Source: Bacillota bacterium (GTDB lineage: Bacteria > Bacillota > Dethiobacteria > DTU022). Taken from it: DNA of 64,000 bases. The stretch's first letter is position 1; each line of letters opens with the position of its first letter. A program made the position numbers and the translations under genes. Of this stretch, positions 33,469-39,704 are shown in pieces. A model generated the notes under the pieces. That model saw nothing but the letters and a program-made list of their open reading frames with translations. It was not told the origin of the DNA and searched no databases. Location: contig JAUWPV010000001.1 of NCBI GenBank assembly GCA_030611385.1, positions 98,299-162,298 of the forward strand, written 5' to 3'.

Positions 33469-34047
33469 ATGCACCTTATTGTCGGTCTCGGCAACCCCGG
33501 AAGAGAATATGCCGGCAGCAGACACAACCTCGGATTTCAGGTGGTGGAAGCACTTTCACGCCGCTTAAAGGCCGCAAAACCGATCCAGAAGCACTGGTCT
33601 TTGTGTGCCGTTGCCGATTATAAGGGAAAACAGGTTATGCTTGCCCAACCGCTTACCTATATGAACCTCAGTGGCCGTGCTGTTATTGAGTTAATGCGCA
33701 ATAACAATGTTGATCTTCTTAATCTGCTGTTTGTTTACGACGATCTGGATCTGCCACAGGGTTCAATCCGCATGCGTAAAAAAGGAGGAAGCGCCGGGCA
33801 CCGGGGTATTCAATCGATTATCGATACCCTTGGTTCCGCTGATTTTCCACGCCTGCGTATCGGTATCGGAAAACCGCCTGATGGTATGGAAGGTAGCGAT
33901 TATGTCCTTCAAGTTATTGATCCCGGGGAATTGGTTTTGATCAACGAAGCTTTAAACAAAGCAGTAGAAGCAATCCTTCTATTTGTAGATGAAGGATTGG
34001 AAGCAGCAATGAATAATTTTAACCAGGGATTGCTCTCTTCCGACTAA
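33469..34047 (+). CDS. pth: Peptidyl-tRNA hydrolase
   Basis: MHLIVGLGNPGREYAGSRHNLGFQVV, GSAGHRGIQSI. Confidence 0.97.
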   Translation: MHLIVGLGNPGREYAGSRHNLGFQVVEALSRRLKAAKPIQKHWSLCAVADYKGKQVMLAQPLTYMNLSGRAVIELMRNNNVDLLNLLFVYDDLDLPQGSIRMRKKGGSAGHRGIQSIIDTLGSADFPRLRIGIGKPPDGMEGSDYVLQVIDPGELVLINEALNKAVEAILLFVDEGLEAAMNNFNQGLLSSD

Positions 34048-35549
34048 TCCGGCACTGTAGGTTTGCGAGTTTTTTGCAGGTGATAACGCAGGGCCCGGGG
34101 AGTAATGAATAGAAGGCGGGCAGCTTGAACCTGGTTATTGTAGGTATCTTCCAAGGCGTTTTCGATGATTTTAGTGATCAGTGAATCGCGCCATTGACCG
34201 ATCTCTTTGCTGAACTGTTCAAAATTGAATCCTTCCCTGATATTAATTACCTCGAAGAGGGTTTGCTCAAAACGATTAAGCAGATCGGTCAGTTTTGCTG
34301 CTTCTCCGGTAACTTGTGAAAAAAGAATTCTATGATCGGGGTTTAAAGCGTCATAATCATCTGTGTTTGTCGGTATTTCAGTATTATCTTTGCGAATTCT
34401 ATCCGGAAGATCCTCAATATCAATTTGATCTCCTTTGCTCAATAGGAGTACCCGGGCGACCGTGTTTGAAAGCTCCCGGATATTACCCGGCCATTCATGC
34501 CGTTTGATCAAGAGCATGGCCTGGTCTGTAAACCGTTTGATAGGAATCTTTTTGGCAGCAGATTCTTTTTTCAGGAAATAATCGACAAACAATTCAATAT
34601 CTTCGAGTCGCTGCCTTAAAGGGGGAATTTGCAGCGAAGCGACATCCAGTCGATAGAATAGATCTTCCCGGAACTTGTTGGCGGCCACTTTATCGGCAAG
34701 ATTAGTGTTTGTAGCGGTAATAATGCGCACGTCCACCTTACACATTTCCTCACCACCAACTCGCAGGAATTCACCTGTCTCCAAAACGCGCAGCAGTTTA
34801 ATCTGACTAGCCTGACTGGCTGAGTCGATCTCATCCAGAAACAGGGTAGCCTTGTGAGCCATTTCGAAAATCCCTTTTTTCTTGTGACTGGCTCCGGTAA
34901 AAGAACCTTTTTCATGGCCGAATAGTTCGCTTTCCAGTAGGGTTTCGGTAAAAGCCCCGCAGTTAAATGCCAGAAAAGGGCGGTCACAGCGGTGGCTTAC
35001 GGAATGAAGATAGCGGGCCAATACCTCTTTGCCGGTTCCTGTCTCACCTTGGATCAGGACAGTTATATTTTTTTTAGCAATTTTCTGGGCGGCGGAAACC
35101 AAACTGATCATCTTTTGGTTGCGTCCAATCAAAAAACCAAGTTCTTGTTGAGCCAAAGATAGTTCTTCTGTTTCAGCCTTAACGTTTAGAGATCGATCGA
35201 GCAGCAGCTCCATTTCATTAATATCAACAAACGGTTTTTCCACATAATCGAAAGCGCCCAACTGGATAGCTTCAACGGCGGATTTGACCGTTGAATACCC
35301 GGTGATGATAATAACTTCACACTCGGGCTGCACACTTTTGATCTCTTTTAATATATCCAGTCCGTTGGCATCAGGAAGTTTCAGGTCAACCAGAGCAGTA
35401 GCAAAGGTATAATTCGTTAGTTTTTCAGAAGCTTCCGCACCAGTATTAGCGGTAACGGCTTTATACCCTTTTTGTCTCAGGAGATAGCTAAAAAAATTAC
35501 AAACTTCTTGTTCGTCATCAACAACCAGAAAAACGGCCTCTTTAAGCAT
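34044..35549 (-). CDS. NtrC-family sigma54-dependent response regulator
   Basis: Receiver (VVDDEQEV, VDLKLPDANGLD), AAA+ GETGTGKE and ELFGHEKGSFTGA (sigma54 contact loop), C-terminal Fis-type HTH. Confidence 0.96.
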   Translation of the reverse strand: MLKEAVFLVVDDEQEVCNFFSYLLRQKGYKAVTANTGAEASEKLTNYTFATALVDLKLPDANGLDILKEIKSVQPECEVIIITGYSTVKSAVEAIQLGAFDYVEKPFVDINEMELLLDRSLNVKAETEELSLAQQELGFLIGRNQKMISLVSAAQKIAKKNITVLIQGETGTGKEVLARYLHSVSHRCDRPFLAFNCGAFTETLLESELFGHEKGSFTGASHKKKGIFEMAHKATLFLDEIDSASQASQIKLLRVLETGEFLRVGGEEMCKVDVRIITATNTNLADKVAANKFREDLFYRLDVASLQIPPLRQRLEDIELFVDYFLKKESAAKKIPIKRFTDQAMLLIKRHEWPGNIRELSNTVARVLLLSKGDQIDIEDLPDRIRKDNTEIPTNTDDYDALNPDHRILFSQVTGEAAKLTDLLNRFEQTLFEVINIREGFNFEQFSKEIGQWRDSLITKIIENALEDTYNNQVQAARLLFITPRALRYHLQKTRKPTVPD

Positions 35550-35591
35550 GATCTCTTCCTCCAACCAAATAATTTCCAGGCTTAAAACCGG

Positions 35592-36785
35592 CTAATTATT
35601 CTCTTTCACTGTGGGTTCCGTATCTGTTTCTTTTTTATGCAGGGGCAGAATCAGGCTGAAAGTGCTTCCCATACCGATATTTGTGTCGAGATCAATGAAT
35701 CCCCCGTGGGCCTGAGCAATACCGAGACTTACGGATAAGCCTAATCCAGTTCCCTTTCCGTTTTGCTTGGTTGTATAGAAAGGATTGAAAATTTGGGGAA
35801 CATGTTCCTGTTTAATTCCACAGCCATTATCAGAAATGTCAACTATGGCCAGTTCACCTTCAGGATGGACTCTGGTTTCGATAGTGATAACTCCTTTTTG
35901 ACTGTCTCCGGCTGCTCTTGTCTTATCTTCGACAGCATCCTTGGCATTTAGAAGGAGATTGACTATAATCTGTTCTATTCCGTTTGCACTGCCTGATAAT
36001 TTTGGCACATGCGGATTTTGTTTTACTATAAGATCGATATTACTCTTTTCGATCTGGTAAGCCGCCAGGGAAAGAGCGCTGTCGACAATCTCGTTCAGGT
36101 CAACCTCTTCAAAGGTAAATTCGTCTTGCCTGGAAAAGGTAAGCAAATTCTTGATAATTCTCTGACAGCGGATGCCGCTGCTGTGAATATCTTTTATTAA
36201 CTGGTGCTGCGGATTGTCAGTTGATGTTTCTCTTAGCAGCAGCTGCGAGTTGCCGACTATGGCTGTCAGCGGGCTGTTCAGCTCATGGGCAACACCGGCG
36301 GACATTTCCCCCATCGAGACCAGTTTTATTGAATCCATCAGCTGGGTTACGTCTTTGGCGTAATAAGTAACACCATACGGTTCTTTTTGCTCTGTGAAAG
36401 CGGGGTAGGCAAAAATATCGAGTACCCGGTTATAGCGAGTCCTGGATTGCAGATACGCTGTTTTTTGAGAGCGTAAAACCTGGTCGCCAATACAGGGACT
36501 GCACTTTGTCTCTCTTCCGTAAAACAAGTGGTAGCATTTCGAACTCAGAATCTCTTTTTCCGGCATTGTGAAAAAATCGACAGCAGCCTGGTTTACCCGC
36601 TGTATCTCGTAGTCGCTATTGATAAAAACCAGTAGATCGGTAACTGCAGAAAATGTAACTTCCCATTCGCGCTTAATTTGCAGCAGTTCATCAATTTTTT
36701 TCTTTAAGGCGACATAATAAGATTTTTTTGAGCTGTGCACTCCGGTCAGTTTTTCGATCAGCATTCTTTTACTTTTTATAACCAT
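35592..36785 (-). CDS. PAS-domain sensor histidine kinase
   Basis: H-box GEMSAGVAHELNSPLTAIVGN, N-box NLLLNAKDAV, DNGCGI, GTGLGLSVS; Cys-containing PAS CYHLFYGRETKCSPC. Confidence 0.95.
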   Translation of the reverse strand: MVIKSKRMLIEKLTGVHSSKKSYYVALKKKIDELLQIKREWEVTFSAVTDLLVFINSDYEIQRVNQAAVDFFTMPEKEILSSKCYHLFYGRETKCSPCIGDQVLRSQKTAYLQSRTRYNRVLDIFAYPAFTEQKEPYGVTYYAKDVTQLMDSIKLVSMGEMSAGVAHELNSPLTAIVGNSQLLLRETSTDNPQHQLIKDIHSSGIRCQRIIKNLLTFSRQDEFTFEEVDLNEIVDSALSLAAYQIEKSNIDLIVKQNPHVPKLSGSANGIEQIIVNLLLNAKDAVEDKTRAAGDSQKGVITIETRVHPEGELAIVDISDNGCGIKQEHVPQIFNPFYTTKQNGKGTGLGLSVSLGIAQAHGGFIDLDTNIGMGSTFSLILPLHKKETDTEPTVKENN

Positions 36786-36787
36786 GA

Positions 36788-37954
36788 TTATTGATCACCT
36801 GACGCTTCAAGGGCGGAGCGAAAGATATTGTTAATATCCTCGACATCGGCATCCCGTGGATTTGTAATAAAACAGGCATCTTTTATAGCATTTCTACTTA
36901 GCGCGGGTATCGATTCTTCAGGCAGTCCGATTTCGGCCAGACTGGATGGAATACCGACGTCGCGAGCCAGCTCCTGAACCATTTCAATGGCTTTTTCAGC
37001 CGCTTCACGTGCGGATAAATGCTCGGTCTGTGCTCCCATCGCTGCAGCAATAGCAGCATATTTGTTGACACAGGCAATTAGATTATAACGCATAACATAT
37101 GGCAGTAATACGGCGCTGATTGTTCCAATCGGCAGATCCAGCAAACCGCCGACCTGGTGAGTCATGGCATGGGCAAGGCCAAGTATTGCATTGGAAAAAG
37201 CTATCCCGGCGTGCAGGCAGGCTTTGGCCATGGCGATTTTAGCCGCTTCATCAACCTGACTGGCGACTGAAGACCTTAGATTTGCTGAAACCAATTTAAT
37301 GGCATGCAGGGCATGAATATCAGTCATATCGGTAGCTGCCAGGGAAAGGTAAGCTTCAATGGCATGGCTGAGTGCCTCCATGCCGGTATGGGCAGTTACT
37401 TTGCTGTTGATTGTAGAAAGGATTAACGGATCGGATACAGCAATATCGGGCACCAGTGATTTTGAGATAATGGTCATTTTAATCTTACGGTTACTGTCAG
37501 ATATGATCGCAAACTGGGATACTTCGGAGCCAGATCCGGCAGTGGAAGGAACTACAATCAGCGGTGGTAAAGGTTCCGTTATCATATCGATACCTTCAAA
37601 ATCGTGGATTCTGCCTTTGTTGGTAGAAAGGGTAGCCACTGCCTTTGCAGCGTCAACAGCGCTGCCGCCGCCAACTGCCAGGATTGCATCACAGCCGGTG
37701 CTGGCATATAGTAAAGCGCCCGCTTCAACTTCATAGTCACGTGGGTTGGCCGAAAAACTAGTCCAAAGTTGGTATTCCAGGTTGGCTTGTTCAATAAAAG
37801 CGGTTGCTTTTTCAATCCATCCGCATTGCAGCACTCCCTGATCGGCAACTAAGAAAACCATTGATGAACCCAAACGACTGCAGCATTCTCCAACTTGATT
37901 CAGCGAACCGGTACCGAAGATTATTTCCGGGGTCACGAATTTGCTGATATACAT
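36788..37954 (-). CDS. Iron-containing alcohol dehydrogenase (group III)
   Basis: TPEIIFGTGSLNQVG, AVGGGSAVDAAKA, GSGSEVSQFAII, AHTGMEALSHAIEAYLS, NAILGLAHAMTHQVGG. Confidence 0.95.
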   Translation of the reverse strand: MYISKFVTPEIIFGTGSLNQVGECCSRLGSSMVFLVADQGVLQCGWIEKATAFIEQANLEYQLWTSFSANPRDYEVEAGALLYASTGCDAILAVGGGSAVDAAKAVATLSTNKGRIHDFEGIDMITEPLPPLIVVPSTAGSGSEVSQFAIISDSNRKIKMTIISKSLVPDIAVSDPLILSTINSKVTAHTGMEALSHAIEAYLSLAATDMTDIHALHAIKLVSANLRSSVASQVDEAAKIAMAKACLHAGIAFSNAILGLAHAMTHQVGGLLDLPIGTISAVLLPYVMRYNLIACVNKYAAIAAAMGAQTEHLSAREAAEKAIEMVQELARDVGIPSSLAEIGLPEESIPALSRNAIKDACFITNPRDADVEDINNIFRSALEASGDQ

Positions 37955-38120
37955 ATTTGAACCCGCCTTTTGTCGAAGTCTTACCTTACTGCCCTATTAT
38001 TCAGTACTCAGTAGCGTAAATCCTTTATTAGATCATAGACAAGAAGATAGACGCTCTTGTATCGATTTAGGAGCGCCTAAGGTTAACTCATATACTCTCT
38101 TTGCTCAAAAACTGGTGCTT

Positions 38121-38384
38121 TCATCGGCCTGGTGTTAAGGCAGGGTCTCGCTCAGTTCTTTTTTCTTTCACCAGCACTTCCTTATATATTTCCGGAACTA
38201 ATCCGAAGCCGACATTGTGTTCCATAAGTTTTTTACATTTGCTTTTCTGTACTAAAGTGCAGCCACAGCTTCTGGCTTCCTCTGCCGTTAATTTTTTTCC
38301 GTATGCACCGGCGCTGCAGAACATGACCCAGCCGTTAAGGCTCTGATATTCCTTCCAGTTTGGACAACCCACCAATTTTTTCAT
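38121..38384 (-). CDS. Small Cys-rich protein, paralogue of N-terminal domain of the adjacent FNT channel
   Basis: MKKLVGCPNWKEYQSLNGWVMFCSAGAYGKK...CGCTLVQKSKCKKLMEHNVGFGLVPE; RBS aaggag. Confidence 0.8.
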   Translation of the reverse strand: MKKLVGCPNWKEYQSLNGWVMFCSAGAYGKKLTAEEARSCGCTLVQKSKCKKLMEHNVGFGLVPEIYKEVLVKEKRTERDPALTPGR

Positions 38385-38436
38385 AAATCTCACTCCTTTA
38401 TGAATTTCCTAAACAGTTTCCCACTTTTCTCCGAGT

Positions 38437-39528
38437 CTAAAATTTTCCGTTGACAATGATCCTTCTGGTCATGGTCGGACGCAGGTAGCAGGTCCAGTAT
38501 GCTATGGCAACAAAGACCACGCCTCCGATAATGTTACCGATTGTGACCGGGATCAGGTTGTTGATGAAGAACGCCTGCCAGGTGATGCTCTGAAGCACTG
38601 ACGGCGAGAAGAGCCCCTGGGCCATGGCGCTGTTTTTCAGAAGGATACCCATTGGCACGAAGTACATGTTAGCGATTGAGTGTTCGAATCCGGCAGCTAC
38701 GAATGCTGTTATCGGAATCATAATCGCCAGGATTTTGCTGATAGCATCTTTACCAGCCAAGGAGAGCCATACAGCCAGGCAAACCAGCCAGTTGCAGAGG
38801 ATGCCTCTGAAAAGTGCTTCGCTCCAGCTCAGGCTTACTTTTACATAGGCGATATTCACTACTCTCAAAGTAATTCCTCCAGCGTTGGCTTTCCAGATGC
38901 CGGAGTAGTAGAAGAGTGCCACTACAATCAGAGCACCTACAAAGTTGAAGAGGTAAACCCATAACCAGTTATGCAGAACCTGTTTACCAGTGACTTTTTT
39001 GTCCAGGTAACCGGCGGCCAACAGGCTGTTGCCGGTAAAAAGCTCTGCTCCGCCGAGAATGACCAGGATCAGCCCGAGGGAGAAAGCGACTCCTCCGACC
39101 AAGCGACTCAGTCCGTCGCCGATATAGACGGAGAGGTCATTAGTGATAATTGTGAACATCACGGCTCCTAAGGCGATATAAGCGCCAGCAAGTATGGCCA
39201 GTATGACCAGTGAAGAAGTAGCGGTGGCTGTCTTCTTCTGGGCAACCCCAACCACTGTTTTAGCGATTTCCGCAGGCGGATCACAGGATAACACCGCAAC
39301 TGCAGAGGTAACTGCAACGGGTTGCAAAGCAGGCAGTTCCTCCGGAACAAGACCGACTCCTACTGCATACTCCATGCATTTCATACATTCTTTCCGTTTC
39401 TCAGGCAAACAACCGATTGCCTGCAGGAATTGAGGGTTAACCGGCCGGTTGAAAGCAGCCAGTTCGCAGTAACAAACATGTCCCGCGATTGAATCATACT
39501 CATTCCAGAATGCGCACTTCTCAGACAT
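38437..39528 (-). CDS. Formate/nitrite transporter (FNT/FocA family) with N-terminal Cys-rich domain
   Basis: FNT motifs GGAELFTGNSLL, GFEHSIANMYFVPMG; extra ~70-aa N-terminal Cys-rich segment. Confidence 0.92.
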   Translation of the reverse strand: MSEKCAFWNEYDSIAGHVCYCELAAFNRPVNPQFLQAIGCLPEKRKECMKCMEYAVGVGLVPEELPALQPVAVTSAVAVLSCDPPAEIAKTVVGVAQKKTATATSSLVILAILAGAYIALGAVMFTIITNDLSVYIGDGLSRLVGGVAFSLGLILVILGGAELFTGNSLLAAGYLDKKVTGKQVLHNWLWVYLFNFVGALIVVALFYYSGIWKANAGGITLRVVNIAYVKVSLSWSEALFRGILCNWLVCLAVWLSLAGKDAISKILAIMIPITAFVAAGFEHSIANMYFVPMGILLKNSAMAQGLFSPSVLQSITWQAFFINNLIPVTIGNIIGGVVFVAIAYWTCYLRPTMTRRIIVNGKF

Positions 39529-39578
39529 GATTATCTTCTCCTTCTATATTCCGTAATTCTTGCTCTGCTATTTATTAA

Positions 39579-39595
39579 AGCAATCTTCGTGCCAA
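39579..39595 (-). promoter_or_regulatory. Sigma54 (-24/-12) promoter upstream of the FNT gene
   Basis: Reverse complement TTGGCACGAAGATTGCT; GG and GC separated by 10 nt; ~50 nt before ATG. Confidence 0.88.
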
Positions 39596-39688
39596 CTATT
39601 ATTTTGCTTCTGTATTAATGATTATGAGTAATGGACTCAGTAATAATGTAAAAGGAGATTGTTCTTAGTAGCAGAAATGACGCAAATA

Positions 39689-39704
39689 GGTCACTTTGTT
39701 GACC
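39689..39704. promoter_or_regulatory. Candidate enhancer (UAS) for the NtrC-type regulator
   Basis: Inverted repeat GGTCA-ctttgt-TGACC ~100 bp upstream of the -24/-12 element; extra GGTCA half-site at 39706. Confidence 0.45.

Follow-up and report, generated by a model that had tools for sequence, protein, structure and literature searches.

Layout and conservation of the cassette

The window, a 64,000-nucleotide stretch of a Bacillota genome, carries five minus-strand genes between pth and mfd, in the order FNT, Cys, ADH, HK and NtrC. The first (38437..39528, minus strand) encodes a FocA-like channel of the FNT family, 363 aa long and with an N-terminal Cys domain, as identified by Pfam, NCBIfam and PDB matches. 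The second (38121..38384, minus strand) was recognised in the Cys-family alignment as an 87-aa stand-alone Cys-domain protein. These are followed by an ErcA-like homologue of Fe-alcohol dehydrogenases (Fe-ADHs), which NCBIfam matches and a comparison of metal ligands lead us to predict to be a pseudo-dehydrogenase (36788..37954, minus strand), by a sensor histidine kinase with PAS, HisKA and HATPase domains from Pfam (35592..36785, minus strand), and by an NtrC-type response regulator with receiver, sigma54-activator AAA+ and Fis HTH domains, starting at the ATG at 35549 (34044..35549, minus strand). The gene positions and identities agree with those in the earlier note on this DNA, as do its spacings of 2 bp between ADH and HK and of about 50 bp between FNT and Cys, which we measured as 2 and 52 bp; the Cys-ADH and HK-NtrC gaps are 166 and 42 bp.

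By tblastn against fetched loci, the same order was found some two dozen times, in families f1, f5 and f7 of the class; the nearest named relatives are MAGs labelled Syntrophomonadaceae or Bacillota bacterium. In L042, L044 and L046, Cys and ADH are separated by a second FNT gene. The Cys domain is present in 32 of 98 genomes, and the co-occurrence that the earlier note had left to be checked is found in 31 of the 32 Cys-domain genomes of the class, where the domain is accompanied by a kinase orthologue (Fisher p about 3e-23 across the 98 genomes, a value that treats related genomes as independent and ignores shared ancestry). The exceptions are contig edges: the G015 sequence ends inside ADH, and the G028 contig starts inside the kinase gene. 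We reject chance clustering of the five genes because their order recurs in so many loci with the sigma54 site kept, and kinase and Cys domain occur together. The pth and mfd flanks are as here in some cassette loci and absent in others; since many loci have other flanks, these two genes are also rejected as parts of the system. At L045:3624-3911, an ADH-like start (MHISKFVTPE) runs into a channel fragment, either by gene conversion or as an assembly artefact.

A sigma54 promoter and enhancer confined to Cys-domain genes

A sigma54 promoter had been placed before the first gene by the earlier note, and a perfect -24/-12 match (TGGCACGAAGATTGCT, TGGCAC-N5-TTGCT; 39579..39594, minus strand) indeed lies 50 bp before the FNT start. 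It is the sole perfect match in the 1.76 Mb genome, which encodes one RpoN and three clear sigma54 activators. Wherever upstream sequence is available, a cassette has such a site, with 0-1 mismatch, 36-66 bp before its first FNT gene, and orphan Cys genes have one 36-41 bp upstream; none was found before the second FNT gene of cassettes. The channel's Cys domain and the stand-alone copy are both encoded downstream of one sigma54 promoter with a conserved enhancer. Inside the cassette, including the 166-bp Cys-ADH gap, no terminator-like site was found on the minus strand; the RNA structure of this gap is ordinary (z=-0.16), and no Rfam elements were found near the cassette. Given the gap, ADH, HK and NtrC may or may not share the sigma54 transcript.

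The enhancer, GTGACC-TATTTG-CGTCAT (39677..39694, minus strand), is a copy of a conserved inverted repeat, GTGACG-N6-CGTCAC, centred 91 bp upstream of the -24 box. Palindrome enumeration recovered the core TGACG-N6-CGTCA in 10 upstream sequences, against a shuffle maximum of 3. The full repeat is matched at 9 or more of its 12 positions in 22 of 24 cassettes and at 11 or more in all five orphan Cys genes, where shuffled sequence reaches 10/12 in 0.6% of trials. A genome-wide scan allowing at most one mismatch returned 15 distinct sites in 13 of the 98 genomes (control hits, four), and the window's own genome has no other site at this stringency than the one at 39677-39694. Because each of the 15 precedes either a gene for a Cys-domain channel or an orphan Cys gene, the predicted regulon is dedicated to Cys-domain genes. 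With the -24/-12 consensus conserved in relatives and an enhancer upstream, the sequence evidence speaks against independence from sigma54 and strongly supports the earlier note's view of the cassette as self-regulated.

We infer that the cassette's own regulator binds the repeat. It is an NtrC-type activator by its receiver, its AAA+ domain with a GSFTGA/GAFTGA loop and its Fis HTH, and its C-terminal helix, ITPRALRY, does not vary among cassettes and differs in related regulators. The PAS domain of the kinase contains Cys; the window kinase lacks the GAF domain (PF01590) that relatives beyond its own subgroup carry after residue 33. In family f35 the Cys-FNT genes keep the sigma54 site and lack the repeat, and the best kinase match in these genomes is only 42-44% identical and located elsewhere. 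Some f35 channel genes adjoin corrinoid-protein-like and methyltransferase-like genes, identified by eye.

A four-cysteine domain in channels, adaptors and regulators

Residues 1-64 of the channel (39337..39528, minus strand) are homologous to the stand-alone protein (E=3.7e-9). Four cysteines, C7, C23, C42 and C50 in stand-alone numbering, are invariant in 34 sequences together with G18, A27 and G41. The stand-alone protein has no Pfam match, and the domain returned nothing above threshold from Pfam, NCBIfam or PDB sequences; the sole Pfam lead, DUF2769 (PF10967), stays below its cut-off (14.5 vs 22.8 bits, E=0.05). An AlphaFold2 model of medium confidence (pLDDT 73.9) consists of a beta-hairpin and helices, and a fold search with it against the PDB gave no match at E<=0.001. 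To our knowledge the spacing of the cysteines fits no recognised metal or Fe-S module. As judged from these comparisons, this is a previously unnamed four-cysteine domain. Plasmids and viral contigs gave no match to it.

Outside the class, families f18, f45 and f60 have a stand-alone Cys copy and a fusion of the domain to an XRE-type HTH. At L160:8048-12652, both lie directly upstream of a selenocysteine formate dehydrogenase (CARLUHSATV), and L161-L163 have the same layout by ORF pattern. The stand-alone copies of L045 and L095 bear a C-terminal HTH-like extension, which we read as a putative excisionase-like HTH. Two lone Cys-domain genes of family f11 (L164:7703-7951 and L165:8198-8449) have no clear formate neighbour.

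With four invariant cysteines and no homology to a known sensor, the domain could have no sensing role and instead serve structure or metal binding (Zn or Fe-S), giving the channel stability or offering a docking point for a partner such as formate dehydrogenase. However, its recurrent fusion to DNA-binding domains and its dedicated regulon suggest a role in signalling, and we consider the purely structural alternative unlikely.

Channels that have lost the domain were seen in G043, where a remnant reads MANRCRFWQ, and in G088. Because both channels also occur without a sigma54 site and without a kinase orthologue, these two cases, the only ones, suggest that the Cys domain and its regulation are kept or lost together.

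The channel is probably a formate channel

The match of channel residues 87-345 to PF01226 (E=1.5e-79; 267 bits against a cut-off of 34.6) places the protein in the FNT family. Residues 85-351 (38476..39276, minus strand) align with residues 12-281 of E. coli FocA (3kcu, E=4.8e-52), including the EHSIANM stretch, and the structure model of this part is helical. The FocA equivalog TIGR04060 is the best NCBIfam model, yet its score of 258.6 bits falls below the cut-off of 290.1, so that formate is the likely substrate rather than a settled one.

The FNT family is promiscuous in substrate, and this, with the score below the equivalog cut-off, would allow a channel for another small anion or weak acid (hydrosulfide, nitrite, lactate or acetate) whose Cys domain senses sulfide or oxidative stress. 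We regard this as improbable, as the best NCBIfam model and the best PDB matches are FocA, the latter far above NirC, the Cys domain is also linked to a selenocysteine formate dehydrogenase, and a domain-less homologue in G099 adjoins FdhA-like genes. Where the earlier note spoke of formate or small-anion transport, formate is made plausible by the FocA residues and by the link to formate dehydrogenase.

A dehydrogenase homologue with an incomplete metal site

The label Fe-alcohol dehydrogenase in the earlier note holds as a statement of homology, since the overall Pfam family match is strong, and is overstated as a name because two conserved metal ligands are missing. The Asp ligand is replaced by Glu193 (codon 37376..37378, minus strand) and a His ligand by Ile276 (codon 37127..37129, minus strand). 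Glu and Ile stand at these positions in 22/22 cassette copies, against Asp and His in 9/9 other Fe-ADHs, of which four are kinase-linked, at or near aldehyde-oxidoreductase-type loci in L179 and L213, and two are linked to MadS kinases in actinobacteria. Two of the four conserved metal ligands (Asp, His, His, His) are therefore replaced, while His197, His266 and the nucleotide-binding GGGS motif are kept. We tentatively take the third ligand to be His262, not His266, by counting back from the PHG motif on the pattern of the FucO site; this position is Gln in L033, whose copy appears to lose the third ligand too. In a tree with other Fe-ADHs, a branch supported at 100/98 separates the cassette proteins from the rest.

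The best NCBIfam model is ErcA (NF041833), at 462.2 bits against a cut-off of 550. The gene context is that of ErcA, with a sensor kinase 2 bp away and the order conserved. Because the two ligands are lost in all 22 cassette copies and kept in kinase-linked ErcA-like relatives, the protein is better read as a putative regulatory pseudo-dehydrogenase derived from an ErcA-like partner, probably a sensor rather than an enzyme of alcohol metabolism. Some residual activity is possible, as Glu and two His could suffice to bind a metal.

L179:3475-7890, L213:5283-9505, L209:2887-7239 and L180 each combine an ErcA-like ADH with intact ligands, a GAF/PAS kinase and an NtrC-type regulator. The L179 triple adjoins genes for aldehyde ferredoxin oxidoreductase (AOR) and a tungsten maturase, and the L213 triple adjoins AOR-like and ADH genes with sigma54-like sites. 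Other related kinase/NtrC pairs adjoin NuoEF-like or xanthine/CO-dehydrogenase-like genes, these two identified by eye, the AOR and tungsten maturase being confirmed. We propose that the cassette may have adopted its kinase system from alcohol/aldehyde or Mo/W-enzyme loci.

Several further pairs were noted. A ThiF-like gene precedes the pair in L207, L208, L210 and L212; in all of these but L210, the pair is followed by an AOR-like operon that has a sigma54-like site in front. The pairs in L177, L178, L214 and L215 sit beside xanthine/CO-dehydrogenase-like genes and have no ADH partner. In the window's own genome, L190 (C21:62000-70000) carries genes for NuoE/NuoF-like subunits and an FdhA-like gene that a probable Sec codon splits in two, in a region adjoining genes that resemble the glycine cleavage system.

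A working dehydrogenase in a regulon that couples formate transport with alcohol or aldehyde metabolism is very improbable, since the strong family match and the AOR, tungsten maturase and intact ADH genes beside related triples stand against the two ligands replaced in every cassette copy (and apparently a third in L033), the lack of a conserved alcohol or aldehyde enzyme in the cassette, and an enhancer found before Cys-domain genes only. The earlier note's joint induction of formate transport and alcohol/aldehyde metabolism is not supported, in view of the ligand losses and an enhancer found only before FNT and Cys genes.

Proposed mechanism and implications

Syntrophic and one-carbon metabolism rely on formate as a main electron carrier, and the control of its flux across the membrane in anaerobes is, as far as we know, poorly understood. 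We consider it fairly probable that the five genes form a self-regulated formate-channel cassette with a kinase-linked pseudo-dehydrogenase and gating by the Cys domain. The two-component switch apparently activates only Cys-domain genes, with the disabled ADH apparently its sensor part. The pseudo-dehydrogenase, GGGS motif kept and metal site incomplete, would inform the kinase together with the Cys-containing PAS domain; the kinase would phosphorylate the NtrC-type regulator, which on GTGACG-N6-CGTCAC would drive sigma54 transcription of the channel and stand-alone Cys protein and, in some relatives, of the orphan Cys genes. The cytoplasmic Cys domain may then gate the channel in response to the redox state, the metal/Fe-S state or a formate-linked ligand, with the stand-alone protein as a partner or a competitor for the same site. 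Overall, the cassette would adjust formate export or import to the one-carbon and redox state of the cell.

More tentatively, the four-Cys domain could be a new sensor of formate metabolism common to channels, transcription factors and stand-alone adaptors, and the degenerate dehydrogenase the kinase's metabolite-sensing subunit, in a regulon not described before; we hold this broader reading to be possible rather than probable. In papers treating formate transporters together with sigma54 or with aldehyde oxidoreductase loci, we did not find the cassette described. Class IV ADH and formate dehydrogenases are sigma54 targets in passages of a sigma54 regulon survey (PMC12316311), and a formate channel is not mentioned among the targets in those passages.

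The cassette offers a defined regulon with operator, promoter, regulator and targets, and a new Cys domain that is associated with formate genes in two contexts independent of each other. The kinase-partner dehydrogenases form a natural series from ligand-intact to ligand-lost, and the cassette makes testable how a dehydrogenase homologue turns into a signalling part.

Comparison with known systems

The channel resembles E. coli FocA (3kcu) across the whole channel part (E=4.8e-52), EHSIANM included. The N-terminus of FocA is cytoplasmic and regulatory. Unlike FocA, the cassette channel has a 64-residue four-Cys domain and a linker in front, stands under its own two-component sigma54 system and scores below the FocA equivalog cut-off.

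The XRE-Cys regulator loci L160-L163 share with the cassette a Cys domain in a formate context, whereas they have neither a channel fusion nor an adjacent sigma54 site. The triples in L179, L213, L209 and L180 have the same three signalling genes, with ADHs 58-60% identical to that of the cassette; in contrast to it, their metal ligands are intact and they have no FNT or Cys domain. Finally, ErcA/ErcS in the regulation of ethanol oxidation in Pseudomonas (described in PMC12997753, citing Hempel 2013) likewise pairs an Fe-ADH homologue with an adjoining sensor kinase. The cassette differs in that its ADH lies below the 550-bit cut-off and has lost metal ligands, and in that its output, instead of ethanol oxidation, is an NtrC-type regulator and a formate-type channel.
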